Position numbers and translations under genes: made by a program | Origin: Myxococcota bacterium | GTDB lineage: Bacteria; Myxococcota_A; UBA796; UBA9615; JAKLKC01 | Direction: 5' to 3' | Assembly (NCBI GenBank): GCA_023150875.1 | Contig: JAKLKC010000002.1 | Span: 1 to 64,000 of the forward strand | DNA: 64,000 nt | Shown: one piece after another, positions 22,449-61,465 of the stretch | Numbering within the stretch: the stretch's first letter is position 1 | Layout: every line of letters starts with the position of its first letter | Notes under the pieces: model-generated | Database searches by the model: none | Told to the model about the DNA's origin: nothing | Seen by the model: the letters and a program-made list of their open reading frames with translations, nothing else

Positions 22449-24605
22449 ATGAAGATCCACTTCGCTCTCATCGCCATGCTCTTCCTCGCCGGGGGCTGCG
22501 CCGAGGAGGCCGCGGACGACGACGCGGCGGCGGACGACGATTCCGGTACCGACGACGACACGGTGCCGGACGACGACTCCGCGGCCGACGACGACACGGC
22601 TCCGGACGACGACACGGCGCCGGACGACGACTCCGCTTCCGATGACGACTCCGCGGCCGACGACGATTCTGCCCCGGACGACGACACCACTCCCGATCCG
22701 GTTGTCACCGACCGGGACGGCGACGGCCACGACGCCATCGAGCACGGGGGAGACGACTGCGACGACTTCGACGCCTGGACCTATCCCGGCGCCCCGGAGG
22801 TGTGCGACTTCGCACATGCGGACAACGACTGCGACGGGGTCGGCGACCTGGACACCGACGCGGACGGCGACGGCCTGGCGGTCTGCGACGACTGCGACGA
22901 CGCCGATCCCACCCGCAACGGCCTGGCGGAGGAGGTCTGCGACGGGATCGACAACAACTGCGACGGCCTGGTGGACGAGGACCAGGACATGGACGGGCAC
23001 GCGGCCTGCGACGACTGCGACAACCGCAGCCCCCTGCGCTACCCCGGCGCGTTCGAGGCGTGCGACGGCATCGACAACGACTGCGACGAAGAGGTGGACG
23101 GGGACGTGGACTTCGATGGCTTCGACGCCTGCGAGGACTGCCGCCCCCTCGATCCCTACGCCTGGCCCGGGGCTCCCGAGACCTGCGACGGCGTGGACAA
23201 CGACTGCGACGGGCTCCTGGACGAGGACGACCCGGACTTCGCCACGGACGCCGACGGCGACGGGGTGCTCTCCCGGGGGTGCGGCGGGGACGACTGCGAC
23301 GACACCTGGGCGGCGACCTGGCCCGGCGCTCCCGAGGTGTGCGACGGCCGGGACAACGACTGCGACGGCAGCACCGACAACGACAAGGACGGCGACGGCC
23401 ACGGAGCCTGCGAGGACTGCGACATCGCCGACCCCGAGGTGTACGACGGGGGGCCGGAGTCCTGCGACGGCAAGGACAACGACTGCGACGGCGTGGTGGA
23501 CGGCGATCAGGACGGGGACGGCTACGGCGCCTGCGAGGACTGCGACTTCGCCGACCCCGACGTGAACGCCGGCCTGCCGGAGTTCTGCGACGGCAAGGAC
23601 AACAACTGCGACGGCGTGGTGGACGCCGACGACCCCACGGTGGACGGCGACCAGGACGACGACGGCGACCTCTCGGCCCTGTGCGGCGGGGATGACTGCG
23701 ACGACACCGATCCGGCGATGCACGGCCTCGACACCGACGGCGACGGGCAGAGCGCCTGCGCCGGCGACTGCGACGACCTCGATCCCACCGTCAACACCAC
23801 GGACCTGGACGGCGACGGGATCCCCGCCTGCGAGGGGGACTGCGACGACTCCGATCCCGACGTGTACCCCTATGCGTGGGAGGAGCCCTCCGACGGGATC
23901 GACAACGACTGCGACGGCCTCGTCGACGGGGCGGACGGCGATCCCGTCTCGCTGTTCTCGTTCGGGGACGATTCGTCGGGGGTAATGGCTTTCACCGGGG
24001 GCTTCACCTTCCCCTTCTGCGGCACGGAGTGGACCCAGGCCTACGCGATCTCCAACGGCCGCATCACCTTCGGGGGGGCGGACACCGACTACTCCGAGAG
24101 CGCCACCGAGTTCCTCGGCACCACCTACCGGGACAGCGTCGCGGGCTGGTGGGACGACCTCACCGGCACCGCGGGGACCATCGCATGGGTCCAGCACGCG
24201 GACGCCGCTGCGCTCCACTTCCGGGGGGTCTCCGAGCTCTCCCCCACCAACTCGAACACCTTCGCCATCGTCCTCAGGGCCGACGGCCGGATCTCCCTCC
24301 ACTACGGGGCGGTGGCGGCGGTGGACGGGATCGCCGGCTGGAGCTGCACCCCCGGCGGAACGGTCCCGGAGACCGACCTGACCGCGGCCGCGGTCCCCAT
24401 CGGCGCCGCGGGGATCGGCATGGGGACCGAGGACGCGGTGTACGAGTCGTTCACCGGGACCGGAGCGGACTCCGGGGACCTGGACGACCGGGGCTTCCTG
24501 TTCTGCGTCAACTCGGGGGAGGACCTGGACGGGGACGGCTGGACCGGGAGGTGCGGCGACTGCGACGACGGCGACGCCGCCACCTACCCGGGTTCGGGCT
24601 GCTGA
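22449..24605 (+). CDS. MopE-repeat lipoprotein with acidic linker and nidogen-like domain
   Basis: Protein of 718 residues. Lipoprotein signal peptide (FALIAMLFLAGGC), then an acidic linker of about 12 DDDxx units (residues ~22-80). About ten MopE-type putative metal-binding repeats follow, each of the form DCDDxDP...EVCDGxDNDCDGxVD, rich in Asp and paired Cys. From about residue 500 there is a beta-rich domain (SLFSFGDDSSGVMAFTGGFTFPFCGTEW, ISNGRITFGG, FAIVLRADGRISLHYG) resembling nidogen-like/PEP-type extracellular domains, then a final MopE-like half repeat. Asp-rich repeats suggest divalent cation binding at the cell surface; the named Methylococcus MopE binds copper, but that cannot be transferred. 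It is a tandem paralogue of the next gene. Start ATG 22449 is dictated by the signal peptide. Confidence 0.8.
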   Translation: MKIHFALIAMLFLAGGCAEEAADDDAAADDDSGTDDDTVPDDDSAADDDTAPDDDTAPDDDSASDDDSAADDDSAPDDDTTPDPVVTDRDGDGHDAIEHGGDDCDDFDAWTYPGAPEVCDFAHADNDCDGVGDLDTDADGDGLAVCDDCDDADPTRNGLAEEVCDGIDNNCDGLVDEDQDMDGHAACDDCDNRSPLRYPGAFEACDGIDNDCDEEVDGDVDFDGFDACEDCRPLDPYAWPGAPETCDGVDNDCDGLLDEDDPDFATDADGDGVLSRGCGGDDCDDTWAATWPGAPEVCDGRDNDCDGSTDNDKDGDGHGACEDCDIADPEVYDGGPESCDGKDNDCDGVVDGDQDGDGYGACEDCDFADPDVNAGLPEFCDGKDNNCDGVVDADDPTVDGDQDDDGDLSALCGGDDCDDTDPAMHGLDTDGDGQSACAGDCDDLDPTVNTTDLDGDGIPACEGDCDDSDPDVYPYAWEEPSDGIDNDCDGLVDGADGDPVSLFSFGDDSSGVMAFTGGFTFPFCGTEWTQAYAISNGRITFGGADTDYSESATEFLGTTYRDSVAGWWDDLTGTAGTIAWVQHADAAALHFRGVSELSPTNSNTFAIVLRADGRISLHYGAVAAVDGIAGWSCTPGGTVPETDLTAAAVPIGAAGIGMGTEDAVYESFTGTGADSGDLDDRGFLFCVNSGEDLDGDGWTGRCGDCDDGDAATYPGSGC

Positions 24606-24768: not shown

Positions 24769-27654
24769 ATGAGCAGGACGCACGCAGTTTCCTCGTGGTG
24801 GCGGGCGCTTTGCCTCGGGTCGTCGCTGGCGGTGCTGGCGGCGCTGGCGGGATGCGAGGCCCCCGATCCCGAAGACGACGACTCCACCGAGGACGACGAC
24901 ACGGCGCCGGACGACGACTCGACGCCGGACGACGACACCGCCCCGGACGACGACACCGCCCCCGACGACGACACCACGCCCGACGACGACACAACCCCGC
25001 CCGCCGACGCCGACGGGGATGGCTATACCACCCAGGACGGCGACTGCGACGACACCCGCGACTGGATCCATCCCGGAGCGGTGGAGATCTGCGACGGCAC
25101 CGACACGGACTGCGACGGGATCACGCCGGGAACCGAGGTCGACTCCGACGGGGACGGCAGCTCCCCCTGCGGGGGGGACTGCGACGACTCCGACCCCGGG
25201 GTCAACCTCTTCGCCGAGGAAGTCTGCGACGGCAAGGACACCGACTGCCAGGGGGGGCTCGCCTCCGACGAGGTCGACGGCGATGGCGACGGACTGATCC
25301 CCTGTCTCGGGGACTGCGACGACGCCGACGCGGCTGTCATCCCCGGGATCCCCGAGGCGTGCGACGGAGTCGACACCAACTGCGACGGGATCACCCTCCC
25401 GGACGAGTCCGACGCCGACGGGGACGGCTCCCGGGTGTGCGGGGGCGACTGCGACGACGCCGACCCGACGGTTTACGGGGGCGCCGCGGAGCTCTGTGAC
25501 GGCCTCGACCAGGACTGCGATGGTCTCGCGGCGGGGGAGGCCGACGGGGACGGCGACGGGGTGAGGGTGTGCGCCGGGGACTGCGACGACGCCCGGGCGG
25601 ACGTCGCGCCGGGGCGGACCGAGGCGTGCGACGGGGTGGACAACGACTGCGACGACGCGGTGGACGCCAGCGAATGGGACGCCGACGGCGACGGCGTGCG
25701 GATCTGCGCCGGCGACTGCGACGACGCCGATCCCGAGCGGGCCGCCGGCTTCGCCGAGTCCTGCGACGGGGTGGACAACGACTGCAGCGGATCGATCCCC
25801 GCGGACGAGGCGGACGCCGACGCCGACGGAGCGAGGGTGTGCGCCGGGGACTGTGCCGACGGCGACGCCTCGCGACATCCGGGAGCGGACGAGGGCTGCG
25901 ACGGCCTGGACACCGATTGCGACGGCGCCACCCCCGGCGGGGAGCTGGACGGGGATGGCGACGGGCTGGCGGAGTGCCAGGGGGACTGTGACGACGACCG
26001 GGCGGAGGTGCTGCCCGGGGCCGTCGAAGGGTGCGATGGCGTCGACACCGACTGCGACGGGGTCGTCCCGGCGGAAGAGACCGACGGCGACGGCGATGGG
26101 ACGTCGCCGTGCTCCGGCGACTGCGATGACGCGGAGCCCTTGATCCATCCCGACGCGGGCGAGGTCTGCAACGCCGTGGACGACGACTGCGACGGCATGG
26201 TCCCCGGCACCGAGCTGGACGGGGACGGCGACGGGCTGGCGGAGTGCCAGGGGGACTGCGACGACGCCCGAGCGGAGGTGCTGCCCGGGGCGGACGAGAC
26301 CTGCGACGGCGCCGACACCGACTGCGACGGGGCGATCCCCCCGGAGGAGGCCGACGAGGACGGCGACGGGGCCCGGGTGTGCGGCGGCGACTGCGACGAC
26401 CTGAGCGCCGCGGTGGGGCCCGCCGCCCCGGAGGCGTGCGACGGGCTCGACACCGACTGCGACGGCGACGTGCCGGCGGACGAGGCCGATGCCGACGCCG
26501 ACGGGGTGCGGATCTGCGCCGGGGACTGCGACGACGCGGATCCGGGGCGGAACCCCGGGGCGGCGGAGGCCTGCGACGGCCTGGACACCGACTGCGACGG
26601 GGCCGTCCCCACGGACGAAGAGGACGGGGACGGCGACGGGGTCCGGGGATGCGACGGGGACTGCGACGACGCCGATCCCGAGGTGAGTCCCGTCGCCGCG
26701 GAGCTCTGCAACCACGTCGACGACGACTGCGACGCCCTGGTGGACGCCGACGACCCCGACACCGAGCTGGACCTGGACGCCGACGGGGACGTGCAGGTGG
26801 AGTGCGGCGGGGGGGACTGCGACGACGAGGACCCCGCCGTCAACGGGCTGGACGCCGACCTCGACGGGTACCCCACGTGCTGGGGGGACTGCGACGACAC
26901 CCAGGAGGACGTCTTCCCCTACGCCTTCGAGGCGACCGACGGGATCGACAACGACTGCGACGGCATGACGGACGGCGCCGACACCGACGCCGTGTACTAC
27001 CTGACCCTGAGCGACGACTCCGCCGCTTCGGTCTCCTTCGGGAGCTGGCGCTACTCCTTCTGCGGCGCCGAGTGGTCCTCGGTCAACGTGGTGTCCAACG
27101 GGCGCCTCCAGTTCGGCGGCTACTCCACCACCTACTCCGAGACCGTCGCCGAGTTCGTCGGAGCTACCTATTACGAGTCCATCGCCCCGTGGTGGGACGA
27201 CATGTACCCCCCGTCCGGGGCGGTGGCCTACGTCCAGTACCCCGACGCCTTCGGCGTCTACTACCTGAGCGTGGGCCAGTGCTGCGGCACCGACGACAAC
27301 AACTTCTCGGTGGTGCTGCTCGGGGACGGGCGCGCCCATGTCTCCTACGGGAACATGGAGTCCAACGACGGCATCGCGGGCTGGAGCTGCACCACCGGGG
27401 ACGACCCCGGCGAGACCGACCTGACCGCCGCGGCGGACGACCGGCTGCCCACGGCGCTGGGGATCGGCCAGGGCACCGAGGACGCCTACTACGAGCTGTT
27501 CGACGGAGGGGGCGGCGGGTCCAACGACCTGGAACACCAGGGCTTCGTCTACTGCATGGACTCGGGCGAGGACCTCGACGGCGACGGCTGGACGGGGGCC
27601 TGCGGCGACTGCGACGACACCGACGCCGCCGTCCGGCCCGGCGCGGGCTGCTGA
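24769..27654 (+). CDS. MopE-repeat lipoprotein, longer tandem paralogue
   Basis: Protein of 961 residues. Signal peptide with lipobox (LAVLAALAGC), about nine DDDxx linker units, roughly fifteen MopE-type repeats (e.g. GGDCDDADPTVY..AELCDGLDQDCDG), then a nidogen-like beta domain (YLTLSDDSAASVSFGSWRYSFCGAEW, VVSNGRLQFGG, NNFSVVLLGDGRAHVSYG, GWSCTTGDDPGETDL) and a closing CGDCDDTDA repeat. The end domain is clearly homologous to that of the preceding gene (shared GIAGWSCT and TEDAxYE), so the pair arose by duplication followed by gain or loss of repeats. The repeats are Cys-bearing and Asp-rich, consistent with disulfide-stabilised cation-binding stalks. The 163-nt gap upstream shows no clear promoter. 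Confidence 0.8.
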   Translation: MSRTHAVSSWWRALCLGSSLAVLAALAGCEAPDPEDDDSTEDDDTAPDDDSTPDDDTAPDDDTAPDDDTTPDDDTTPPADADGDGYTTQDGDCDDTRDWIHPGAVEICDGTDTDCDGITPGTEVDSDGDGSSPCGGDCDDSDPGVNLFAEEVCDGKDTDCQGGLASDEVDGDGDGLIPCLGDCDDADAAVIPGIPEACDGVDTNCDGITLPDESDADGDGSRVCGGDCDDADPTVYGGAAELCDGLDQDCDGLAAGEADGDGDGVRVCAGDCDDARADVAPGRTEACDGVDNDCDDAVDASEWDADGDGVRICAGDCDDADPERAAGFAESCDGVDNDCSGSIPADEADADADGARVCAGDCADGDASRHPGADEGCDGLDTDCDGATPGGELDGDGDGLAECQGDCDDDRAEVLPGAVEGCDGVDTDCDGVVPAEETDGDGDGTSPCSGDCDDAEPLIHPDAGEVCNAVDDDCDGMVPGTELDGDGDGLAECQGDCDDARAEVLPGADETCDGADTDCDGAIPPEEADEDGDGARVCGGDCDDLSAAVGPAAPEACDGLDTDCDGDVPADEADADADGVRICAGDCDDADPGRNPGAAEACDGLDTDCDGAVPTDEEDGDGDGVRGCDGDCDDADPEVSPVAAELCNHVDDDCDALVDADDPDTELDLDADGDVQVECGGGDCDDEDPAVNGLDADLDGYPTCWGDCDDTQEDVFPYAFEATDGIDNDCDGMTDGADTDAVYYLTLSDDSAASVSFGSWRYSFCGAEWSSVNVVSNGRLQFGGYSTTYSETVAEFVGATYYESIAPWWDDMYPPSGAVAYVQYPDAFGVYYLSVGQCCGTDDNNFSVVLLGDGRAHVSYGNMESNDGIAGWSCTTGDDPGETDLTAAADDRLPTALGIGQGTEDAYYELFDGGGGGSNDLEHQGFVYCMDSGEDLDGDGWTGACGDCDDTDAAVRPGAGC

Positions 27655-33250: not shown

Positions 33251-33931
33251 ATGCCTTCCCTCCCCACCGCCCCCCTCCCCGCCCTGTTCCTTGCGCTCCT
33301 GGCCGTGTCCGGCTGCCTGCCGGACTTCCCCGGCGACTCCGACGACGACGCCAGCGACGACGACGTGGCCGACGACGACGCGGCCGACGACGACGCGGCC
33401 GACGACGACGCCAGCGACGACGATGCTGCCGACGACGACGCGGCCGACGACGACGCGGCCGACGACGACAGCGGCTCGACGCCCGAAGAGGACCTCGCCT
33501 GGGTGGCGGGGGAGGCGTGGTCCGGCGTCGAGCTGGACCACCTGGACTTCGACGCCACCGCCGAAGCGAACGGCTACTGGGACTGCACCTGGGAGTGGGA
33601 CGTCGCCGGGGACCTGGAGGTCACGCCCACGGGCTCCCTTTGCGAGGAGTGCGCGGTCGTCTTCCACGTCCGGGGAACGCCGCTCCCCGACGACTGCATC
33701 GTGGGTTCCTACGTGAACGACTCCTGGTACGGCATCGAGCTGCTGGGGGATCGGCGCGGCGTCCTCTGGTCCAAGGGGTCGCAGAACGGGGGCTGGACGG
33801 ACTGGTGCGAGGTCACCCTGGACGCCCCGGGGGAGATCCGGTACTTCTGCGCCAACGGCGGATCGGGCACCATCGGGGAAGACAGCGGCTCCTTCACCGG
33901 CGAGGTCGAGGGAACGGCGACGCTCAAGTGA
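33251..33931 (+). CDS. Lipoprotein with acidic DDDxx linker
   Basis: Protein of 226 residues. A lipoprotein signal (LFLALLAVSGC) precedes a linker of about nine DDDAA/DDDAS pentads (residues ~30-75), encoded by near-identical 15-bp units. A compact ~145-residue domain follows (YWDCTWEWDVAGDLEVTPTG, CEECAVVFHVRGTPLPDDCIVGSY, IRYFCANGGSGTIGEDSGSFTGEVEGTATLK). The Cys pairs and alternating strands suggest a small beta-sandwich. No known family was recognised. Its stop overlaps the next start (GTGA), coupling it to the TPR protein and kinase genes. It could be an envelope ligand or sensor for that kinase; this is inference from gene order only. Confidence 0.75.
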   Translation: MPSLPTAPLPALFLALLAVSGCLPDFPGDSDDDASDDDVADDDAADDDAADDDASDDDAADDDAADDDAADDDSGSTPEEDLAWVAGEAWSGVELDHLDFDATAEANGYWDCTWEWDVAGDLEVTPTGSLCEECAVVFHVRGTPLPDDCIVGSYVNDSWYGIELLGDRRGVLWSKGSQNGGWTDWCEVTLDAPGEIRYFCANGGSGTIGEDSGSFTGEVEGTATLK

Positions 33932-45352: not shown

Positions 45353-46320
45353 AGCGCGCCGCCCTCGTCGCCACCCTCGGCCTGGGGATCCCACAGGGGT
45401 GCATCGGGCTGGACTACATGTGGTTCTACCCCGAGCGCCTGGACGCCTACACCCACGAGTGGTCCCCGGGGGAGGGGGAGGAGGGGGAGCCCCACGAGCC
45501 CAACCACGTCCCCGCGGAGTGCATCGAGGAGGTGTCCCTGGAGACCGCCGACGGGCTGACCGTGTACGGGCTCTGGGCCTGGAGGGACGAGGCGTGGCTG
45601 GCCGGTGACACCTCGGAGCCCTGCGGGGCCCGGCCCGCGAAGCACACCTTCCACTACTCCCACGGCCAGTCCAGGCACCTCGACTACTACTGGGACCGGC
45701 AGCAGCTCCTGTGGGACGCGGGCTTCAACGTCTTCGCCGTCGACTACCGGGGGTATGGGCGGAGCGAGGGGGAGCCCACCGAGGAGGGGATGTACGAGGA
45801 CTCCCGCACGGCCCTGCGCCACCTCCGCTGCCGCCTGGCGGGGGTCGATCCGTGCGAGCCCGACGTCCCCCTGCCGTCCGCCCGGGGGAGCCGGATCTTC
45901 TACTACGGCTTCTCCCTCGGCGCCGCGGCCGCGACCCAGATGGCCCGGGAGGTGGAGCCGTCGGGCCTCGTGATGGAGGCTCCCTTCGCCTCCGCCCAGG
46001 CGTTCGTCGACGACGTCGTCCAGATCGGGATCCCCGCGTCCGCCCTCCTGGAGTATGCCTTCGACAACCACGGCCGCCTGCCCCTCATCACCGCCCCCAA
46101 GCTGATCGTCCACGGCACGGACGACGACTACGTCGGCTTCCACCACTCCCAGGTGCTCTACGACGCGGCGGTCCCGTGCGAGCAGGGAACCGCCGAGGAT
46201 CCGGACTGCAAGGACCTGTGGGCCATCGCCGGGGCGGACCACGGGGACATCCCCGAGGTCGCCGGAGTCCAGGACTACCTGGACCGCCTACGCGGATTCG
46301 CCGAGGCCTGGGCGCCCTGA
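45349..46320 (+). CDS. Alpha/beta hydrolase, probably exported
   Basis: Protein of 323 residues from the overlapping GTG at 45349. The N-terminus AALVATLGLGIPQGC looks like a lipoprotein signal with an imperfect lipobox. The fold is alpha/beta hydrolase: FHYSHGQSRHLDYY, VFAVDYRGYGRSEGEPTEEGMYEDSRTALRHL, nucleophile elbow YGFSLGAAAA (Ser189), VMEAPFASAQAFV, Asp in LIVHGTDDDYVG and His in GADHGDIPE. It resembles BEM46/FrsA-type hydrolases. Substrate unknown. Several Cys residues (CRLAGVDPCEPD, CEQGTAEDPDC) suggest disulfides outside the cytoplasm. The 3' end overlaps the convergent gene by 33 nt. Confidence 0.8.
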   Translation: MKRAALVATLGLGIPQGCIGLDYMWFYPERLDAYTHEWSPGEGEEGEPHEPNHVPAECIEEVSLETADGLTVYGLWAWRDEAWLAGDTSEPCGARPAKHTFHYSHGQSRHLDYYWDRQQLLWDAGFNVFAVDYRGYGRSEGEPTEEGMYEDSRTALRHLRCRLAGVDPCEPDVPLPSARGSRIFYYGFSLGAAAATQMAREVEPSGLVMEAPFASAQAFVDDVVQIGIPASALLEYAFDNHGRLPLITAPKLIVHGTDDDYVGFHHSQVLYDAAVPCEQGTAEDPDCKDLWAIAGADHGDIPEVAGVQDYLDRLRGFAEAWAP

Positions 46321-47274
46321 GGTCCGGCGTCGCGCCGCGGCCAGGGAGGCGATGACCGAGAGGGCCAGCGCCGACGCGGACCCCCCGGGGGTCGCCGCGG
46401 CGCAACGGCAGTCCACGTTCCGGCTCGTGCCCCGCCCTCCGAGATCGTCGTCGTCGTCGGCCGAGACGAAGGTGTCGTCGTCGGAGGCGTCGTCATCCCC
46501 GGTGTCGTCATCGGAGGCGTCGTCGTCGGAGGCGTCGTCGTCGGAGGCGTCGTCGTCGGAGGCGTCGTCGTCGCCACCCGAGTCATCGTCGCTGGCGTCG
46601 TCGTCGCTGGCGTCATCGTCGCTGGCGTCATCGTCGCCGGTGTCGTCGTCGCCGGTGTCGTCGTCGCTGGTGTCATCGTCGGGGTCGACGCCACCCCCCC
46701 ACGTGAGGCGGACGTGGTCCACGGCGTCGTAGCCCACATTGAAGAGGACGACGATGGAGGGCCCCCAGGAGGTCGCCTGGCCGATCCAGCCGTCGGCCAT
46801 CGCCCTTCCGGCGTCCACGGGATAGGAGGCGTCCCCGTCGTACCAGATGTCGTCGGTGGACTGGAGGCCACCCACCCCCACGATATAGCCGTAGCCCGGA
46901 GTCAGTTCCCTCCCGACGGTCCCGGACGAGAAGAAGCCCGTCCCCGCGCTGGCCGTGACGTTCCCGGTCCAGACCAGGCTGAACGTGCCGTAGAGCCCGA
47001 AGGGGACGTAGTCCGGCGACTCGTAGAGGGCGAAGGCGAGGGTCCGGCTCCCCGAGAGGGTCAGGTAGTACTCGAAGCGGTCCAGGACCGCCCCCTCCTC
47101 GACGTAGGCGAGCACCGTGCCCTCGCCCCAGGGGGGCGTGTTCCCACCCGACTGGTAGCTGTTCGAGGCGTCCCCCACCGTCACCGTCTCCGCCGCCGCC
47201 TCGCCGGGGCCGAGGAGGGCCGCGGCGGCGGCGAGGCAGGGAAGGGGCCAGGACGGAATCCGCGGGTACGACAC
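46288..47274 (-). CDS. Secreted DDDxx-linker protein with MYXO-CTERM-like tail
   Basis: Protein of 328 residues from GTG 47274 (GGGGGAG upstream; an ATG ten codons earlier is possible). Signal peptide LPCLAAAAALLGPGEAAAET, then a ~180-residue beta-rich domain (TVTVGDASNSYQSGGNTPPWGEGTVLAYVEEGAVLDRFEYYLTLSG, LAFALYESPD, FFSSGTVGRELTPGYGYIVGVGG, IVVLFNVGYDAVDHVRLTWGG). Next comes an acidic linker of about 16 DDDxS/T units encoded by 15-bp repeats, then CRC followed by a hydrophobic helix (ALALSVIASLAAA) and RRR, which resembles a MYXO-CTERM sorting tail. Surface localisation is likely; function unknown. It follows the FHA gene by 62 nt. Confidence 0.72.
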   Translation of the reverse strand: MSYPRIPSWPLPCLAAAAALLGPGEAAAETVTVGDASNSYQSGGNTPPWGEGTVLAYVEEGAVLDRFEYYLTLSGSRTLAFALYESPDYVPFGLYGTFSLVWTGNVTASAGTGFFSSGTVGRELTPGYGYIVGVGGLQSTDDIWYDGDASYPVDAGRAMADGWIGQATSWGPSIVVLFNVGYDAVDHVRLTWGGGVDPDDDTSDDDTGDDDTGDDDASDDDASDDDASDDDSGGDDDASDDDASDDDASDDDASDDDTGDDDASDDDTFVSADDDDDLGGRGTSRNVDCRCAAATPGGSASALALSVIASLAAARRRTSGRPGLGESA

Positions 47275-52730: not shown

Positions 52731-52942
52731 GCAAGGAGATCCGGGCGGAGATCACGGGGACGGTGTGGAAGGTCCACGTCGCGGCCGGCCACGTCTTCGC
52801 GGCGGGGGAGGAGCTGGCGATCCTGGAGTCCATGAAGATGGAGATCCCCGTAGAGCCCGAAGAGGGGGGCACCGTGGCGGAGGTGCGGATCCGGGAGGGC
52901 CAGGCGATCCAGGAGGGGGACGTGATGTTCGTCGTGGAGTAG
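52727..52942 (+). CDS. Stand-alone biotin carboxyl carrier (biotinyl-lipoyl) protein
   Basis: Protein of 71 residues comprising only a biotinyl domain: EIRAEITGTVWKVHVAAGHVFAAGEELAILESMKMEIPVEPEEGGTVAEVRIREGQAIQEGDVMFVVE. Lys37 in ESMKME is the biotinylation site. Such one-domain carriers serve acyl-CoA carboxylases whose biotin carboxylase and transferase subunits are encoded elsewhere, e.g. in branched-chain acyl-CoA degradation clusters. The ATG overlaps the BKACE stop (ATGA). No carboxylase subunit is present nearby, so its partner is unknown. Confidence 0.92.
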   Translation: MSKEIRAEITGTVWKVHVAAGHVFAAGEELAILESMKMEIPVEPEEGGTVAEVRIREGQAIQEGDVMFVVE

Positions 52943-52950
52943 CCCCCCCG

Positions 52951-53057
52951 TTGCCCGTGCCCGTGCCCGAGTCCGTGTTCGTGCCGGTGTTCGTGTTCGT
53001 GCCGGTGTTCGTGTTCGTGCCGGTGTTCGTGTTCGTGCCGGTGTTCGTGTTCGTGCC
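52951..53057. repeat. Hexamer tract with 18-bp tandem repeat
   Basis: After GTGCCC units, an 18-bp unit GTGTTCGTGTTCGTGCCG is repeated about four times (52987-53057). Read on the minus strand it gives Asn-Thr-Gly-Thr repeats in shadow ORFs. It belongs to the same hexamer family as 13845, 15491 and 62464. With the repeat at 53109 it fills the 358-nt gap to the glycosyltransferase gene. Confidence 0.85.
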
Positions 53058-53300: not shown

Positions 53301-54506
53301 TCAGCCCCGCCGGGCCTCCACCGCCGCCCCCAGCGCGTCGCGCATCGCTTCGGCGGCGGCGTCCCAGGTCCGGTCCCGGGCGAAGGCCCGGCCCGCGGTC
53401 CCCAGGCGGTCCCGCAGGGCGTCGTCCGCCAGGCATCGCAGGACCGCCCCCGCGAAGGCCTCCGCGCCGTCGGCGACGAGCGCCTCCCGGCCGTCCCGGA
53501 CGGGAGTGCCCTCGGCGCCCACCGCGGTCGAGACCACCGCGCGGCCGGTGGCGAGGGCCTCCAGCAGCTTCAGCCGCGCGCCCCCCGCCACCCGCAGCGG
53601 GATCACCTCCACCCGGGCCCGCAGGCGCCAGGGCGTCACGTCCTCCACCTCCCCCACCCACTCTACGCCGGGTCCGCCGAGCGCCCGCGCCGCCCCACCG
53701 GGCCGCCGCCCCACCACCGTCAGGACGGCGCCGGGGCGGCGCGCCTGGACCCGGGGCCAGACGTCTCCGATGAACCACCGGAGCCCGTCCAGGTTCCCCC
53801 GCCAGTCCAAGGCCCCGATGAAGACGACGCGGTCGGGATCCCCCGGCCCCTCCACCGCCGGCAGGTCGGCGAGGCCGGCATCGACCCCGTGGGGCACCAC
53901 CGCCACCCGCCGCGCACCCATGCCCTCGAACGCCCGCGCGTCCTCCCGGGACACCGTGACCACCAGGTCCGCGCCCCGGGCGGCGCGCCGCTCCATGCGC
54001 TCCGTCCGCCGGGCCTGGAGGCTCCACGCGAGGCGGCGGGGGAGGTCCTCCGCCACCCCCGCGGCCCGCCGGGCGATCTGCCCCTCGACGTTGTGGGCGT
54101 GCAGGACCCGGGCGGCGGAGCCGGCGAGGGCCAGGTAGGGGGCGACGTGCAGGTACTCCGCCACCACGGCTTCGGGACGGCGACGGCGCGCCTCCCGGAG
54201 CACCGCCGCCGTCGTGCGCGCGCTCGCCAGGCGGGCGGCGGTCCACGGCAGGCCGGTGAGGGCCGCCCGCACCGCCGTGCCCACCGCCGCCGGTCCGGGG
54301 CCGAGGCCATTGCGCTCCACGCCCACGGACCCGGGGAACCGCTCCCTCATCGCCGCCGCGCCCACCGCCTCGGAGGGGCGCCAGGCGAAGACGATCCCCA
54401 CGTCGTCCCAGCGGGCGAGGCGGCTCCAGATCTCCAGCGCGCGGATCTCGCCGCCGCCCCGGGCGGGCAGGAAGGGGCGGGGGGCGAGGACGAGGACCCG
54501 GGTCAC
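53301..54506 (-). CDS. GT4-type glycosyltransferase
   Basis: Protein of 401 residues from a GTG whose last bases overlap the giant gene's stop (GTGA). GT-B layout: N-terminal domain RVLVLAPRPFLPARGGGEIRALEIWSRLARW and LHAHNVEGQIARRAAG; C-terminal donor domain RVVFIGALDWRGNLDGLRWFIGDVWPRVQARRPGAVLTVVGRRPGG, VEVIPLRVAGGARLKLLEALATGRAVVSTAVGAEGTPV (the E-x7-E-like donor segment). It resembles sugar transferases associated with exported or PEP-CTERM-type loci (stp1-like) by eye. Cytosolic, using a nucleotide sugar. Coupling to a large surface protein suggests a role in its modification or in surface polysaccharide, an inference from gene order. Confidence 0.87.
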   Translation of the reverse strand: MTRVLVLAPRPFLPARGGGEIRALEIWSRLARWDDVGIVFAWRPSEAVGAAAMRERFPGSVGVERNGLGPGPAAVGTAVRAALTGLPWTAARLASARTTAAVLREARRRRPEAVVAEYLHVAPYLALAGSAARVLHAHNVEGQIARRAAGVAEDLPRRLAWSLQARRTERMERRAARGADLVVTVSREDARAFEGMGARRVAVVPHGVDAGLADLPAVEGPGDPDRVVFIGALDWRGNLDGLRWFIGDVWPRVQARRPGAVLTVVGRRPGGAARALGGPGVEWVGEVEDVTPWRLRARVEVIPLRVAGGARLKLLEALATGRAVVSTAVGAEGTPVRDGREALVADGAEAFAGAVLRCLADDALRDRLGTAGRAFARDRTWDAAAEAMRDALGAAVEARRG

Positions 54507-57500
54507 TCGTCCACGAAGCCGTCGCAGTCGTCGTCCCGGCCGTTGGGGACCTCCAGGGCGCCGGGGCGGACGTCGGCGCGGGTGTCGTCGCAGTCCCCGC
54601 CCGCCTCAGTGAAGCCGTCCCGGTCGTCGTCGTAGGCCGTCGTGCCCTCGTCCACCCGACCGTCGCAGTTGTTGTCGACGCCGTCCATGACCTCGGCGGC
54701 GCCGGGATAGACGTCGGCGAGGCCGTCGTTGCAGTCCCCCTGGTTCTCGCTGCGCCCGTCGCCATCGTCGTCCCGCAGGACCGTGCCCTCGTCGACGGTG
54801 CCGTCGCAGTCGTCGTCCAGGCCGTTGGCCAGCTCGGTGGCGCCGGGGTGGATCGTCGGCACGGCGTCGTTGCAGTCGCCCCCGGCCGGGCCCCAGCCGT
54901 CGCCGTCGGCGTCGTCCGCCCCCGTGGCCGTGCCGTCGCAGTCCCAGTCCAGGCCCGGGCCCCCATCGGGCGCGCCGGGGTACACGTCGTCGTCGCTGTC
55001 GTCGCAGTCCCCCTCGTCCTCGCTGTAGCCGTCGTGGTCGTCGTCGGAGGCCCGGGTCCCCTCGTCGGTCAGCCCGTCGCAGTCGTTGTCCAGCCCGTCC
55101 CCCGAGGCGTCCCCCGCCCCTCCGTCCTCGGGCGCGCCGGGGTACACCGTGGGATCCCCGTCGTCGCAGTCCCCGCCCACCTCGCTGTAGCCGTCCAGGT
55201 CGTCGTCCGAGTCCTCGGTCCCCTCGTCCGTCAGCCCGTCGCAGTCGTCGTCGACCCCGTTGGAGACCTCGGTACCCCCCGGGAAGACGTCCGCATCGGC
55301 GTCGTTGCAGTCCCCGCCGACCTCGGCGTGCCCGTCCCCGTCGTCGTCGTAGTTCTCGGTCCCCTCGTCGACGGTCCCGTCGCAGTCGTTGTCGAGTCCG
55401 TCCGCCAGCTCCGGGGCGCCGGGATGGCTGTCCGCGTCCCCCTCGAAGCAGTCGGCGCCGCACGCGTACCCGTCGCCGTCGAGGTCGAAGCCCTGGTGGT
55501 GGGTGGCCGTGCAGTCGTTCCCGTACAGCGGCACGTCCACCAGGGGGCGCGCGGCGTCGTCGGTCTCGATGACCAGGGAGCCCGCGGCCGCCGCGACTTC
55601 CGCGGGGGCGAACGTCACCGTCAGCACCAGCTCCTCCCCCTCCCGGAGGGCCAGCGGAAGAGCGCCCACGGAGGCGGGCAGGCTCACCGAGAACGCCTCC
55701 CCCGACTCCACCTCGGCCCGGAGCAGGTTCAGGTCCGCGACGCCCTCGTTGCGGACCGTCACCGAGGCGTGCTGGGGATCCCCGGGCTCCACGGGGCCGA
55801 AGTCCACCAGGGCCGGGTAGACCGCGAGGGCGCCGGACCGGGCGGACCCCCGGAGCACCAGCTCCTGGGAGCCCTCGGCCCCCTGGGCGTTGATGTTGAT
55901 CGTCAGCACCGCCCGGTCGTCCCCCTCGATGCGGGGGTGGTACGCCACCTGGATCTGGGCGACCTCGCCGGGGCCGATGTCCCCCTCGATCCCCGTGACG
56001 ACCTCGAAGTCCCCCCCGGGATCGTCCAGCACCAGACCGAGGACGGTCATCGTCCCCGAGCCCGCGTTGTCCAGGAAGACGTCCCGCACCGGGTCCGAGC
56101 CCACCAGCACCGCGCCGAAGTCCACGATGTCCGGGGTGATCCGCAGCTCGGGGGTGGACGCGTTGATGTTGACGTCGGTGCAGCCGGGGAGGGCCAGCAG
56201 CGCCACGGCGGAGACCACGGCGGCGCGGGGAAACGTTCTGCGCCGCCGCAGGGGGATCAGCAGGCCCAGGGCGAGCCCCGCGGCGAGGCCGCCCCCCTGC
56301 CCGCGGCCCCGGGAGTCGCACCCGCCGCAGTCGCCCGGGTCCACCTCGCCGTCGCCCTCCGAGTCGTCCCCGCAGCCGGGGTCCACCTCGCCGTCGCAGT
56401 CGTTGTCCATCCCGTCGCAGTCCTCGATGGCATCGGGGTTCGTGAACGCCTCCGCGTCGTCGCAGTCCCCCTGGTCCTCGCTGTGGCCGTCCCCGTCGTC
56501 GTCGAAGGCGTCGGTCCCCTCGTCGGTGACCCCGTCGCAGTCCTCGTCCACGCCGTCGGCGACCTCGCCCGCGCCCGGGTGGACGTCCTCGTCCGCGTCG
56601 TCGCAGTCCCCCTGGTCCTCGCTGAAGCCGTCGCCGTCGTCGTCGGACTGGGAGGTCCCCTCGTCCACGCGCCCGTCGCAGTCGTCGTCCACTCCGTTCA
56701 CCTCCTCCTCCGCGTCCGGGTGGATCCCGGGGTCCCCGTCGTGGCAGTCCCCCTGCTCCTCGCTGAAGCCGTCCCCGTCGTCGTCGCTCGCCACCGTCCC
56801 CTCGTCGACCTCGCCGTCGCAGTCGTCATCCACCCCGTCCGCCTCCTCCGGGGCGCCGGGGTAGGCGCTGGGGTCGTCGTCGTCGCAGTCCCCGCCCGCG
56901 GGGGCGTACCCGTCGCCGTCCCCGTCGGCGGTGTCGCTCACCCCTCCGTCCACCACCCCGTCGCAGTCGTTGTCGACGCCGTCCAGCACCTCCACCGCGC
57001 CCGGAGAGACCAGGGGATCGCCGTCGTTGCAGTCCCCCGCCACCTCGGAGTAGCCGTCCCCGTCGTCGTCGTAGAGCTCGGTGGTCTCGTCCACGACCCC
57101 GTCGCAGTCGTTGTCCGCCCCGTCGGGCAACTCCACGGCGCCGGGGTGCGTGTCGTCCCGGGCGTCGTTGCAGTCGCCGCCGGACTCGGCGAAGCCGTCG
57201 CCGTCCTCGTCGGTGCCTCCGGTGCCCTCGTCGATGGCCCCGTCGCAGTCGTCGTCGACGGAGTTCGACAGCTCCGGGGCGCCGGGGTGGACCTCGTCGT
57301 CGGTGTCGTCGCAGTCCCCGGCGTCCTCCGAGTACCCGTCGCCGTCGTCGTCCACGTCGGGGGCGCCCTCGTCGGTGAAGCCGTCACAGTCGTTGTCGAT
57401 CCCGTCGTCCAGCTCCGGGGCCCCGGGGTACACGGTGGGATCGGAGTCGTCGCAGTCCCCGGAGAGCTCCGTGGCCCCGTCCCCGTCGTCGTCCCACGCG

Positions 57501-60500
57501 TGGGTGCCCTCGTCCACGACCCCGTCGCAGTCCTCGTCGACGCCGTCCGGTCCCTCCAGGGCCCCCGGGTGGATCGAGGCGTCGCCGTCGTGGCAGTCCT
57601 CTCCGCCCAGGAACCAGGTGTCGTATCCGTCGCCGTCGGCGTCCAGCTCGTCGCCGCCGGCACAGTCGTCGTCCACGCCGTTGTAGGGGACCTCGACGGC
57701 TCCCGGGTGGACCGAGGCGTTGCCGTCGTCGCAGTCGGTCCCCCCCACGATCGCCGCGGGGTGGCCGTCGCCGTCCACGTCCACCAGGTCCGTGCCGTTG
57801 CAGTCCTGGTCGATGCCGTCGTAGGGGACCTCCGTCGCACCGGGGAAGACCGAGTCGTCGGTGTCCCGACAGTCCCCCCCGCACACCGTCACCCCGTCCC
57901 CGTCGGCGTCCGACTCCTCGTCCACCAGGCCGTCGCAGTCGTCGTCCACGCCGTTGCAGGCTTCGGGGGCCTCGGGGTGGATGGCCGGGTTCCCGTCCTG
58001 GCAGTCCCCGCCGCACGTGGCCCAGCCGTCCCCGTCGGCATCGTCGTTCTCGTCCACGGACCCGTCGCAGTCGTCGTCGATCCCGTTGCAGGGCTCGCCG
58101 GCGCCGGGGTACACCGACGCCGCGTGGTCGTCGCAGTCGCCGGCACACGTGGTGTAGCCGTCGGAGTCGAGGTCGTAGCCCTCGTCCACGGAGAGGTCGC
58201 AGTCGTCGTCGAGTCCGTTGCAGGTCTCGGTGGCGCCGGGCTCCACGTAGGGGTTGGCGTCGTTGCAGTCTCCTGCGCAGGTGGTGGTCCCGTCGCCGTC
58301 GGCGTCGAAGCCCTCGTCGATCCCCCCGTCGCAGTCGTCGTCCCGGGCGTTGCAGCTCTCGGGGGCCCCGGGGTAGACCGTGGCGGAGCCGTCGTCGCAG
58401 TCCCCCTCGCAGGCGGTCCAGGTGTCGTGGTCGTTGTCGAAGCCCTCGTCCACCGACCCGTCGCAGTCGTCGTCCACGAAGTTGCAGGCCTCGGCGCGTC
58501 CCGGGCTCACCGTGGCGTCGGCGTCGTCGCAGTCGCCGCCGCAGGTGGTGTACCCGTCTCCGTCGGCGTCGTAGCCCTCGTCCGTGGCCCCGTCGCAGTC
58601 GTCGTCTACGCCGTTGCAGGTCTCGTAGGCCCCGGGCCGCACCCCCGCGTTGCCGTCGTTGCAGTCCCCGGCACAGGTGGTCCAGCCGTCGCCGTCGGCG
58701 TCGAAACCCTCGTCGGTGGCGCCATCGCAGTCGTCGTCGATGGCGTTGCAGGCCTCGGCGCGGGAGGGGTTCACCAGGGCGTTGCCATCGTTGCAGTCCC
58801 CGTTGCAGCTCGTGTAGCCGTCGGCGTCGGCGTCGAACCCCTCGTCGGTGACGCCGTCGCAGTCGTCGTCGACGAGGTTGCAGGTCTCGGTGGCGTAGGG
58901 CCGGATCCCCGCGTTGCCGTCGTTGCAGTCGCCCCCGCACGACGTGTACCCGTCGCCGTCGGCGTCGTAGCCCTCGTCGATGGCGAGGTCGCAGTCGTCG
59001 TCGATGCCGTTGCAGACCTCGGCGTGGCCCGGGTAGACGGCGGCGTTGCCGTCGTTGCAGTCACCGTCGCAGGTGGTCCAGCCGTCGCCGTCGTTGTCGG
59101 AGTTCTCGTCGATGACGCCGTTGCAGTTGTTGTCGATGCCGTCGCACAGGTCGGCGACGCCGGGGTTCATCGCCGCGTTGCCGTCGTTGCAGTCGCCGCC
59201 GCACGAGGTGTAACCGTCCCCGTCGCCGTCGAACCCCTCGTCCACGGTCCCGTCGCAGTCCTGATCGACGCCGTCGCAGGTCTCCACCGCGCCGGGCTTG
59301 ATGGTGGCGTTGCCGTCGTTGCAGTCGCCGCCGCAGGACGTGTAGCCGTCCCCGTCGGCGTCGAAACCGTCGTCCACGATCCCGTCGCAGTCCTGATCGA
59401 TGCCGTCGCAGGACTCGGCGGCGCCGGGCCGGATGGCGTTGTTCCCGTCGTTGCAGTCGCCCCCGCAGGACGTGTAGCCGTCGCCGTCCAGGTCGTACCC
59501 CTCGTCGGTCAGCCCGTCGCAGTCGTCGTCGGCGCCGTTGCAGACCTCCGCCCGCCCGGGGTAGATGGCGGCGTTGGAGTCGTTGCAGTCGCCGTTGCAG
59601 GTGGTGTAGCCGTCGCCGTCGGTGTCGAAGCCCTCGTCCGTGGCCCCGTCGCAGTCGTCGTCGACGGCGTTGCAGGCCTCCAGCCGGCCGGGGTTGATCC
59701 CGGCGTTGCCGTCGTTGCAGTCGCCGCCGCAGGTGGTCCAGCCGTCGCCGTCGGTGTCGTAGCCCTCGTCCACGGTCCCGTCGCAGTCGTCGTCGATGGC
59801 GTTGCAGGACTCGGTCCGGCCCGGGTTCCGGTTGGGGTCGCCGTCGGCGCAGTCCCCCCCGCCGACGAGGCTGTAGGAGTCGGCCCGGGTCGCCAGCAGG
59901 ACGTTGGGCAGCAGGTTGAAGGTCCCCGACCAGAACGTGGGCTCGATGACGATGGTGGTGGCGAAGATCACCCCCGCGCCGTACTCCGTCTCCGCCAGGA
60001 CCGGGGAGCTGGTGCCCTGCTTGTTGATGACCGAGGTGTAGGCCCCGGGGACCGACAGGGTGCCGTGGCTGGTGTAGTTGAGGTCCTCGACGTCCGCCTC
60101 GGGAACGGAGTAGGGGGTGTTGAGGAAGCGATGGGTGGGGGCGGCGAAGCTGACCTGGTTGTTGTAGTCGTTGGCCTGGGTGATGGAGCCCGGCCCGTTC
60201 GACCAGTCGCCGCCGTGCCAGCCCCGGTCGGCCCCGTGCAGCTCCAGGACGCGGCACTCGTCGCCCGAGACCCAGGTGTTGAGCCAGCTCAGGTTCGACT
60301 GCATCCGCGTGTAGAAGGTCGACGACTGGTCGGAGAGGATCACCACCTTGTCGAACGAGCTCAGGCTGGCGACCCCGAAGGAGCTGGAACCGTAGGTGGT
60401 GTAGGAGATCCCCTCGGCGTCGAGCAGGTCCTGGACGGAGTACACGTCCCACCAGGGGAGGTCGTCGTAGAACACGGCGACGTTGCGGGGGCGGAGGGGG

Positions 60501-61465
60501 CACTCCCTCAGGTAGCCCGCGTTGGGGGAGCACTCGATGTACCCGTCGCCGTCGTTGTCGACCTCGTCGCCGGGGACCGTGCCGTCGCAGTTGTTGTCCA
60601 GGCCGTCGCACTTCTCGGTGGCCCCCGGCTCGGTGTAGGCGTTCCCGTCGTCGCAGTCGCCGCCGCACCCGGTGGTGCCGTCGCCGTCCCGGTCGGAGCA
60701 CTCCGGGGGCGGCACGAACCGCAGGCCGAAGTGGCCGTCCCCGTCGGGGTCCGCGCCGTCGGCGTAGCTCTGGAGGCCCAGGGCGTTGCAGCCGTAAGTC
60801 AGGGTGGAGGATCCGCCGTCGGTGATGCCGATGGAGGCGCTCTGGCCGTAGTTGTGGGCGTTGCCGGCGGCGAAGTAGGTGTCGTCGTAGAAGACCTCGA
60901 TGATGTTGGTGTTCTCGTGGAGCTTGACCTCGAAGGTGATGGTGTAGGACTCGTTCCCCCCGTAGTAGTTCGTCTGGTACCACTCGGCGATGAACGTGCG
61001 GTTGGGGCTCCCCCCCACGGTGTCGTACCACACGCCCCGGTCGCCGGCGTCCGTCGACTTCAGGTCGTCCCAGAACGGGGCGATCATCGGGTGCCCGGCG
61101 GAGGAGAGGGGGCAGGGGTTGTTGTAGTCGGCGGCGTACCCGTCGAAGGAGAGGGCGCCGTTGGCGCTCAGGGTGACCGCGGTGTAGGTGTCGCCATAGA
61201 ACTTGAAGTCGAACCCCAGGGAGACGGTCTGGGCGCCCTCGTCACCGAGGTTGAGCTTGTTGGCGGCGAACTCGTAGTCGAAGTCCCACGGTCCCCCGAA
61301 GGTCCCCTCGTCGATCCACAGGTAGCCGTATAGGTCCGGGCCTCCGGTGTCGGCGGTGGCCACTGAGGGCGCCAGCCCGGCGAGCAGGGAGAGGAGGGCC
61401 GCGGCCGCGTGGCGGGGCCGGGTGGTGGGGCGGGTGGGGGCGGCGAGGTGGGTGGGGTGGGGCAC
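54503..61465 (-). CDS. Giant MopE-repeat surface protein (probable in-frame fusion)
   Basis: About 2,320 residues. Start GTG 61465 has GGAGG 6 nt upstream and gives a signal peptide (ALLSLLAGLAPSVATAD); the ORF-track start at 62677 runs through another gene's antisense. Order: nidogen-like beta domain (~25-235: VSLGFDFKFYGDTYTAVTLSANGALSF, APFWDDLKS, YTITFEVKLHENTNIIEVFYDD); one MopE repeat; a ~200-residue flavodoxin/GATase-like domain (~325-525: NVAVFYDDLPWWDVYSVQDLLDAEGISYTTYG, VVILSDQSSTFYTRM, VLELHGADRGWHGGDW); about 26 further MopE repeats; a MYXO-CTERM-like end (CGGCDSRG, LAAGLALGLLIPL, RRRR ~1740). The frame then continues into a lipoprotein-type signal (AAVVSAVALLALPGC), two choice-of-anchor/ASH-like Ig domains (ITPDIVDFGAVLVGSDPVRDVFLDNAG; VYPALVDFGPVEPGDPQHASVTVRNEG) and about seven more MopE repeats, stopping at DGFVDE. 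Cation-binding surface fibre likely; biochemical function unknown. Confidence 0.8.
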   Translation of the reverse strand: MPHPTHLAAPTRPTTRPRHAAAALLSLLAGLAPSVATADTGGPDLYGYLWIDEGTFGGPWDFDYEFAANKLNLGDEGAQTVSLGFDFKFYGDTYTAVTLSANGALSFDGYAADYNNPCPLSSAGHPMIAPFWDDLKSTDAGDRGVWYDTVGGSPNRTFIAEWYQTNYYGGNESYTITFEVKLHENTNIIEVFYDDTYFAAGNAHNYGQSASIGITDGGSSTLTYGCNALGLQSYADGADPDGDGHFGLRFVPPPECSDRDGDGTTGCGGDCDDGNAYTEPGATEKCDGLDNNCDGTVPGDEVDNDGDGYIECSPNAGYLRECPLRPRNVAVFYDDLPWWDVYSVQDLLDAEGISYTTYGSSSFGVASLSSFDKVVILSDQSSTFYTRMQSNLSWLNTWVSGDECRVLELHGADRGWHGGDWSNGPGSITQANDYNNQVSFAAPTHRFLNTPYSVPEADVEDLNYTSHGTLSVPGAYTSVINKQGTSSPVLAETEYGAGVIFATTIVIEPTFWSGTFNLLPNVLLATRADSYSLVGGGDCADGDPNRNPGRTESCNAIDDDCDGTVDEGYDTDGDGWTTCGGDCNDGNAGINPGRLEACNAVDDDCDGATDEGFDTDGDGYTTCNGDCNDSNAAIYPGRAEVCNGADDDCDGLTDEGYDLDGDGYTSCGGDCNDGNNAIRPGAAESCDGIDQDCDGIVDDGFDADGDGYTSCGGDCNDGNATIKPGAVETCDGVDQDCDGTVDEGFDGDGDGYTSCGGDCNDGNAAMNPGVADLCDGIDNNCNGVIDENSDNDGDGWTTCDGDCNDGNAAVYPGHAEVCNGIDDDCDLAIDEGYDADGDGYTSCGGDCNDGNAGIRPYATETCNLVDDDCDGVTDEGFDADADGYTSCNGDCNDGNALVNPSRAEACNAIDDDCDGATDEGFDADGDGWTTCAGDCNDGNAGVRPGAYETCNGVDDDCDGATDEGYDADGDGYTTCGGDCDDADATVSPGRAEACNFVDDDCDGSVDEGFDNDHDTWTACEGDCDDGSATVYPGAPESCNARDDDCDGGIDEGFDADGDGTTTCAGDCNDANPYVEPGATETCNGLDDDCDLSVDEGYDLDSDGYTTCAGDCDDHAASVYPGAGEPCNGIDDDCDGSVDENDDADGDGWATCGGDCQDGNPAIHPEAPEACNGVDDDCDGLVDEESDADGDGVTVCGGDCRDTDDSVFPGATEVPYDGIDQDCNGTDLVDVDGDGHPAAIVGGTDCDDGNASVHPGAVEVPYNGVDDDCAGGDELDADGDGYDTWFLGGEDCHDGDASIHPGALEGPDGVDEDCDGVVDEGTHAWDDDGDGATELSGDCDDSDPTVYPGAPELDDGIDNDCDGFTDEGAPDVDDDGDGYSEDAGDCDDTDDEVHPGAPELSNSVDDDCDGAIDEGTGGTDEDGDGFAESGGDCNDARDDTHPGAVELPDGADNDCDGVVDETTELYDDDGDGYSEVAGDCNDGDPLVSPGAVEVLDGVDNDCDGVVDGGVSDTADGDGDGYAPAGGDCDDDDPSAYPGAPEEADGVDDDCDGEVDEGTVASDDDGDGFSEEQGDCHDGDPGIHPDAEEEVNGVDDDCDGRVDEGTSQSDDDGDGFSEDQGDCDDADEDVHPGAGEVADGVDEDCDGVTDEGTDAFDDDGDGHSEDQGDCDDAEAFTNPDAIEDCDGMDNDCDGEVDPGCGDDSEGDGEVDPGDCGGCDSRGRGQGGGLAAGLALGLLIPLRRRRTFPRAAVVSAVALLALPGCTDVNINASTPELRITPDIVDFGAVLVGSDPVRDVFLDNAGSGTMTVLGLVLDDPGGDFEVVTGIEGDIGPGEVAQIQVAYHPRIEGDDRAVLTININAQGAEGSQELVLRGSARSGALAVYPALVDFGPVEPGDPQHASVTVRNEGVADLNLLRAEVESGEAFSVSLPASVGALPLALREGEELVLTVTFAPAEVAAAAGSLVIETDDAARPLVDVPLYGNDCTATHHQGFDLDGDGYACGADCFEGDADSHPGAPELADGLDNDCDGTVDEGTENYDDDGDGHAEVGGDCNDADADVFPGGTEVSNGVDDDCDGLTDEGTEDSDDDLDGYSEVGGDCDDGDPTVYPGAPEDGGAGDASGDGLDNDCDGLTDEGTRASDDDHDGYSEDEGDCDDSDDDVYPGAPDGGPGLDWDCDGTATGADDADGDGWGPAGGDCNDAVPTIHPGATELANGLDDDCDGTVDEGTVLRDDDGDGRSENQGDCNDGLADVYPGAAEVMDGVDNNCDGRVDEGTTAYDDDRDGFTEAGGDCDDTRADVRPGALEVPNGRDDDCDGFVDE

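Follow-up and report, generated by a model that had tools for sequence, protein, structure and literature searches.

In the genome assembly of a Myxococcota bacterium (GCA_023150875.1; 6.92 Mb in 180 contigs), many proteins with a putative lipid anchor carry, beside the anchor cysteine, a repetitive tract in which islands of three aspartates alternate with short gaps of small residues. Four of these tracts are encoded in the window analysed here, i.e. the 64,000 nucleotides from position 1 to position 64,000 of contig JAKLKC010000002.1. We consider it probable that the tracts serve as a disordered, polyanionic stalk, specific to this lineage, for lipid-anchored proteins displayed on the cell surface. 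In the literature collection searched, no paper dealt with Asp-rich repeat linkers of Myxococcota lipoproteins.

Aspartate-triplet tracts in the window and in the genome

The gene at 33251-33931 (plus strand) encodes a lipoprotein of 226 residues, composed of a signal peptide II, the lipobox VSGC, a DDDxx stalk and a small mature domain. A Pfam search with the mature domain gave no match, and no relative was found when the protein was used as a query in a search of genome contigs. Its 15-bp tract (33341-33469, plus strand; nine Asp triplets, DDDASDDDVADDDAA...) begins nine residues past the lipobox cysteine, and the underlying array at 33339-33481, with 9.4 copies and a Tandem Repeats Finder score of 205, encodes (DDDxx)n. 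Two further lipoproteins are encoded on the same strand: one of 718 residues at 22449-24605, with the lipobox AGGC and eight Cu-binding_MopE repeats (PF11617), and one of 961 residues at 24769-27654, with the lipobox LAGC and 14 such repeats, for which the ATG at 24769 was our choice of start. Their tracts follow the lipobox, at 22515-22685 (DDDxxx units, plus strand; the 18-bp array spans 22513-22685) and at 24874-24999 (DDDTTP and DDDTAP units, plus strand). All three lipoboxes were recognized by regular expression and by eye. The fourth tract is encoded on the minus strand, in the gene at 46288-47274 for a Sec-exported protein of 328 residues with a MYXO-CTERM-like tail (CRC, a hydrophobic stretch and ARRR). 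It comprises 14 Asp triplets (46474-46680, minus strand) and stops 21 residues ahead of the tail cysteine; the array (46470-46681, 13.9 copies) lies immediately before the segment of cysteine, hydrophobic stretch and arginines.

The initial annotation of the window had described these four tracts as 15-bp microsatellites that encode the same linker in four proteins with unrelated mature domains. The tracts are real at all four places, code for Asp triplets and lie far above chance expectation. The 15-bp period holds for the tracts in the genes at 33251 and 46288, whereas those in the genes at 22449 and 24769 have a period of 18 bp; and repeats with units of this length are minisatellites, not microsatellites. 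Nor are all four domains unrelated, since the proteins encoded at 22449 and 24769 are paralogs (49% identity over 637 residues, both with Cu-binding_MopE).

Across the whole genome, a three-unit DNA pattern gave 311 matches at the 15-bp and 322 at the 18-bp period, while the reversed pattern, used as a control, gave none. Proteins were studied in a sample of 1.93 Mb, taken in tiles that were partly picked at tract positions (28% of the genome). A tract protein was defined by at least three Asp-triplet islands spaced by one to four residues. The search for further linker proteins, which the initial annotation had proposed, found 102 of them in this sample, compared to 0.3 after shuffling of each protein; with any of eleven other residues in place of Asp, this rule gave at most two proteins. 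The Asp frame of the called gene contains 371 of the 377 pattern matches. The long contigs that were tiled in bulk (1.06 Mb) hold 26 tract genes; by extrapolation from these, the whole genome would have about 170.

Several contigs (C12, C18, C33, C36 at both ends, C77 and C135) end within Asp-triplet tracts, so the assembled tract lengths are unreliable there; the repeats probably limit the assembly. Within the window an additional 18-bp tandem repeat, CGTGCCGGTGTTCGTGTT (52956-53057, 5.3 copies, 96% match), is apparently intergenic and sits between a gene ending at 52939 and a gene beginning at 53304.

Placement of the tracts, cargo domains and occurrence in relatives

In the 88 proteins with an N-terminal tract, the tract starts a median of seven residues after the last preceding cysteine. 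Nearly all of these proteins have a lipobox when their sequences are read, including most of those classed as plain Sec substrates by the regular expression. In 12 clear cases the tract is C-terminal and ends 10 to 26 residues before the cysteine of a MYXO-CTERM-type tail. Following a lipobox cysteine and preceding a MYXO-type cysteine, the tract would in both cases be proximal to the membrane. Exceptions to this placement are few (C100:5347, C110:37360 and part of C11:625). The tract thus appears to accompany the anchor cysteine to either end of the protein, where it would, apart from these exceptions, form the membrane-proximal segment.

The association was quantified solely on the seven long bulk-tiled contigs. 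On these, 19 of the 26 tract genes belong to the class with a lipobox or MYXO-type tail, compared to 78 of 750 other genes (Fisher p = 4e-13); on inspection, six of the remaining seven also have a lipobox or a Cys tail, and the seventh is cut by the contig start. The suggestion of the initial annotation that the linker is a common spacer module tied to the anchor is therefore well supported, as it extends over the genome and to both termini and is strongly enriched in lipid-anchor-type proteins. For the further suggestion that the module serves to cross a surface layer there is no evidence, no search for an S-layer having been made. The annotation had also placed the linker beside either a lipobox or a MYXO-CTERM tail. 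The tail of the 46288-47274 protein has the three parts of such a tag, namely Cys motif, hydrophobic helix and Arg cluster (CRCAAATPGGSASALALSVIASLAAARRR), but its score against TIGR03901, 12.6 bits, is below the cut-off of 20. Six other tract proteins, on contigs C95, C135, C92, C152, C121 and C98, pass this cut-off with 23.5-29.4 bits.

The genome encodes one MrtX-like CPBP protease, whose match of 125 bits (E 9e-36) stays below the MrtX cut-off of 180; comparable matches occur in all 12 genomes searched. A GspD secretin is present and scores above its cut-off. Two further observations concern the tails. The protein encoded at C91:43776-45602 combines a lipobox-like segment (AHGC) at its N-terminus with a tail of the MYXO-CTERM type, and has a tract at the C-terminal side only. 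In the window, a MYXO-CTERM-like stretch, CGGCDSRGRGQGGGLAAGLALGLLIPLRRRR, occurs in the interior of an open reading frame of 2320 residues with MopE repeats (54503-61465, minus strand). Immediately after it come a signal of the lipoprotein type, AVVSAVALLALPGC, and a second exported protein (cysteines near 56329 and 56182). Either a pair was fused here or a stop codon was lost; a similar internal tag was reported for MXAN_5598 in the myxosortase paper.

The domains carried by the tract proteins also differ from those of other lipoproteins. Among 91 tract proteins, Cu-binding_MopE was found in 30 and FG-GAP in 21; other domains are LTD, beta-helix, PNGase F, CBM96, PhoD and arylsulfotransferase. 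The 87 tract-less lipoprotein candidates, with MopE in seven and FG-GAP in six, include TPR, cytochrome c and solute-binding (SBP) families. Indirectly, the domain content of the tract set would fit an outward-facing cargo.

Within the order, four-unit matches are frequent in some other genomes (269 in G003, 108 in G004 and 21 in G001). Elsewhere in the class they are rare, and many of those found are plain poly-Asp. With a stricter pattern, 5 of 284 genomes of the phylum gave matches, four of them within this order. The order-mates show the same tract placement with other units, e.g. DDDTG, DDDDSAG or DDDDTT. G011, a more distant member of the class, has different acidic repeats (PDTDPDTDPDT, EAPEGTEAPEGT) before MYXO tails; its gene calls were trained on 306 codons only and were used just for reading these tails. 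Hence, while the unit sequence appears to be specific for the order, the placement is broader than the Asp-triplet sequence, and repeat linkers at the anchor side may be more widespread in the class.

Asp-triplet tracts after a lipobox cysteine were also found in two metagenome-assembled genomes (MAGs), FR_14 (JAOSJX) and fen_1099 (PMZC01), which from their names and a G+C content of 63% probably belong to phylum FEN-1099, Ca. Lernaellota (G+C range 61.5-64.3%, PMC11382960). In both, tracts also occur directly ahead of the C-terminus in proteins that end in ...GGCGC or ...GGCCGC and lack a helix and an Arg cluster there. A DNA pattern for this end gave 42 matches in FR_14 and 23 in fen_1099 against one each with the reversed control, and zero to four in six other genomes searched; MYXO-CTERM matches are few (four in FR_14, one in fen_1099). 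Ends of this type were read in 13 stretches of FR_14 and two of fen_1099; some read ...CCG, and in FR_14 a Thr/Ser-rich stretch often precedes them. The tract placement in the two MAGs is apparently convergent. The GGCGC-type end resembles the MYXO signature motif but lacks its helix; it may represent a type of C-terminal Cys anchor that has not been described so far.

A proposed polyanionic stalk and its alternatives

Exactly three Asp are present in 739 of 789 islands, and the gaps are mostly two, three or four residues long and made up of Ala, Thr, Gly, Ser, Pro and Val. Among 1867 gap residues there are 14 Glu, no Lys and no Arg. Interior islands are intact in 565 cases, with 94 GAT codons, and contain a single non-Asp residue in two; 94 codon changes against two broken islands indicate that synonymous variation is tolerated whereas replacement is not. 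Where neighbouring units have identical spacer residues, their codons agree in 65% of cases, compared to 17% between arrays, which points to local duplication of units. Two lipoproteins from contigs C27 and C95, 89% identical over 518 residues, have five and four islands, respectively. Codon homogenization and this pair of paralogs lend indirect support to the claim of the initial annotation that the linker changes its length without a frameshift. Tract length ranges from 13 to 134 residues with a median of 33, which corresponds to about 12 nm if fully extended.

Our preferred interpretation is that islands of Asp triplets with two to four small uncharged residues between them are inserted between the putative lipid-anchor cysteine and the folded part, and that the resulting stalk would keep the folded domain of extracellular proteins off the outer membrane. 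The stalk would be held extended because its charges repel each other and Asp has a poor helix propensity; its length would evolve as units of 15, 18 or 21 bp are gained and lost in frame, with selection retaining the Asp triplets. The composition argues for disorder. Surface exposure we infer from the domains of the tract proteins and from what has been published on MYXO-CTERM proteins, for which lipidation of the cysteine and type II secretion are in part speculative. The symmetric placement at both anchor ends is best accounted for by a stalk that adjoins the lipid.

Some points weigh against this interpretation. On the tiled contigs 73 lipoproteins and five MYXO-type proteins are without a tract, so the stalk is not obligatory. 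The GAT counts partly reflect standing codon usage, which makes the ratio taken as selection a rough one. Genes were called with a codon model and anchor classes were assigned by regular expression, and both procedures are heuristic. An AlphaFold2 model of the 33251 protein from the single sequence had a mean predicted local distance difference test score (pLDDT) of 43; this is uninformative and does not confirm disorder. Finally, a bare spacer leaves unexplained why the acidic residue is Asp, hardly ever Glu, and why it comes in triplets. For this choice we prefer low helix propensity combined with charge repulsion as the presumed reason, with cation binding as the main alternative.

It is conceivable, albeit not likely, that the tract has a more far-reaching role as a code for surface display that is independent of the chemistry and polarity of the anchor and would mark its membrane-proximal side, be it a lipobox, a MYXO-CTERM tail or, in Lernaellota-type genomes, a putative anchor at the GG(C)CGC end that has no transmembrane helix. 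The tract itself would then be read by the export machinery or at the outer surface, and N- and C-anchored proteins would share a route. Binding of divalent cations (calcium, magnesium) or of basic surface polymers by the Asp triplets, resulting in a cation-bridged charged coat, would explain the almost exclusive use of Asp, the exactness of the triplets and their strong conservation, and many of the cargo domains are of metal-binding types (MopE, FG-GAP). Yet the gaps vary between two and four residues, which provides no fixed geometry, and no DxDxDG loop is found in the tract; we regard this alternative as unlikely.

An export or sorting address, read by a secretion machinery such as the type II secretion system or a flippase, has a precedent in the lipoprotein export signal (LES) of Bacteroidota, where short acidic motifs by the lipobox cysteine are sufficient for surface export (PMC5080379), and tract presence does divide the lipoproteins by domain content. 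However, the LES acts at positions +2 to +6, and the net negative charge over +2 to +7 is 0.93 with a tract and 0.71 without; moreover, the tract, whose length varies widely, does not begin until about +8 and is found at C-termini as well. An address of this kind is thus distinctly unlikely, and its short LES-like form was rejected on position, as the first residues past the cysteine are hardly more acidic and the tract is used C-terminally. We consider it improbable that the tract is one of the common disordered linkers that serve Lol sorting and reach into the periplasm, like those of E. coli RcsF, NlpD and Pal, and that the proteins remain on the periplasmic face. Half of the outer-membrane lipoproteins of E. 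coli are reported to have disordered linkers governing Lol trafficking (PMC12826056), but here the periplasm-type domains sit on the tract-less lipoproteins. O-glycans on the Ser and Thr residues behind the triplets, as in staphylococcal SD repeats, would fit the first gap residue, which is Thr or Ser in 406 of 684 gaps (about 59%); since whole arrays of AA, VA or VS gaps have no Ser or Thr at that position, a glycosylated stalk is quite improbable. Functionless slippage of GAC repeats at tolerant sites would agree with the local homogenization of the units and with the many GC-rich repeats of the genome, but was rejected as hardly credible because the tracts keep to the Asp frame and to the anchor, have no counterpart with other residues and retain Asp against replacement.

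How Gram-negative bacteria beyond the well-studied groups choose which lipoproteins face outward is largely an open question. If the tracts are indeed stalks of surface proteins, they would be a simple marker for predicting such proteins in these uncultured lineages, and the tract proteins would provide stalks in a natural range of lengths. That MYXO-CTERM proteins are lipidated is so far a hypothesis, and the occurrence of the same linker at a cysteine at either end would be independent evidence, from sequence, that the two anchors are topologically equivalent.

Comparison with known linkers and anchors

In staphylococcal surface proteins with serine-aspartate (SD) repeats, the repeat stalk lies between the wall anchor and the folded domain. 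Like the tracts described here, the SD repeats of ClfA and the Sdr proteins of Staphylococcus are Asp-rich in-frame minisatellites; they lie in surface proteins and vary in unit number (PMC3324548). They consist of SD dipeptides, occur in few proteins per genome and are always on the C-terminal side, next to a Gram-positive LPXTG anchor, whereas the tract proteins are Gram-negative and many, have their tracts at both termini beside lipobox or MYXO anchors, and use units of DDD plus two to four residues in place of SD dipeptides.

The linkers of outer-membrane lipoproteins such as RcsF, NlpD, Pal and LpoB likewise connect anchor and domain by a low-complexity segment, the length of which can matter (PMC12826056). 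These proteins work in the periplasm, are anchored only at their N-terminus and have no repetitive Asp triplets. With the LES of Bacteroidota, which belongs to surface lipoproteins (PMC5080379), the tracts have in common acidic residues beside the lipobox cysteine; the LES is short (+2 to +6), without repeats and N-terminal only, and the tracts do not show its charge pattern.

The C-terminal tract proteins resemble those of the MYXO-CTERM/myxosortase system (TIGR03901, MrtX) in ending with a GCGC-type motif, a hydrophobic stretch and an Arg cluster, and in M. xanthus a disordered region adjoins the tag of MYXO-CTERM proteins (PMC11980579). The definition of that family includes no Asp-triplet stalk; the stalk is largely limited to the order studied here.
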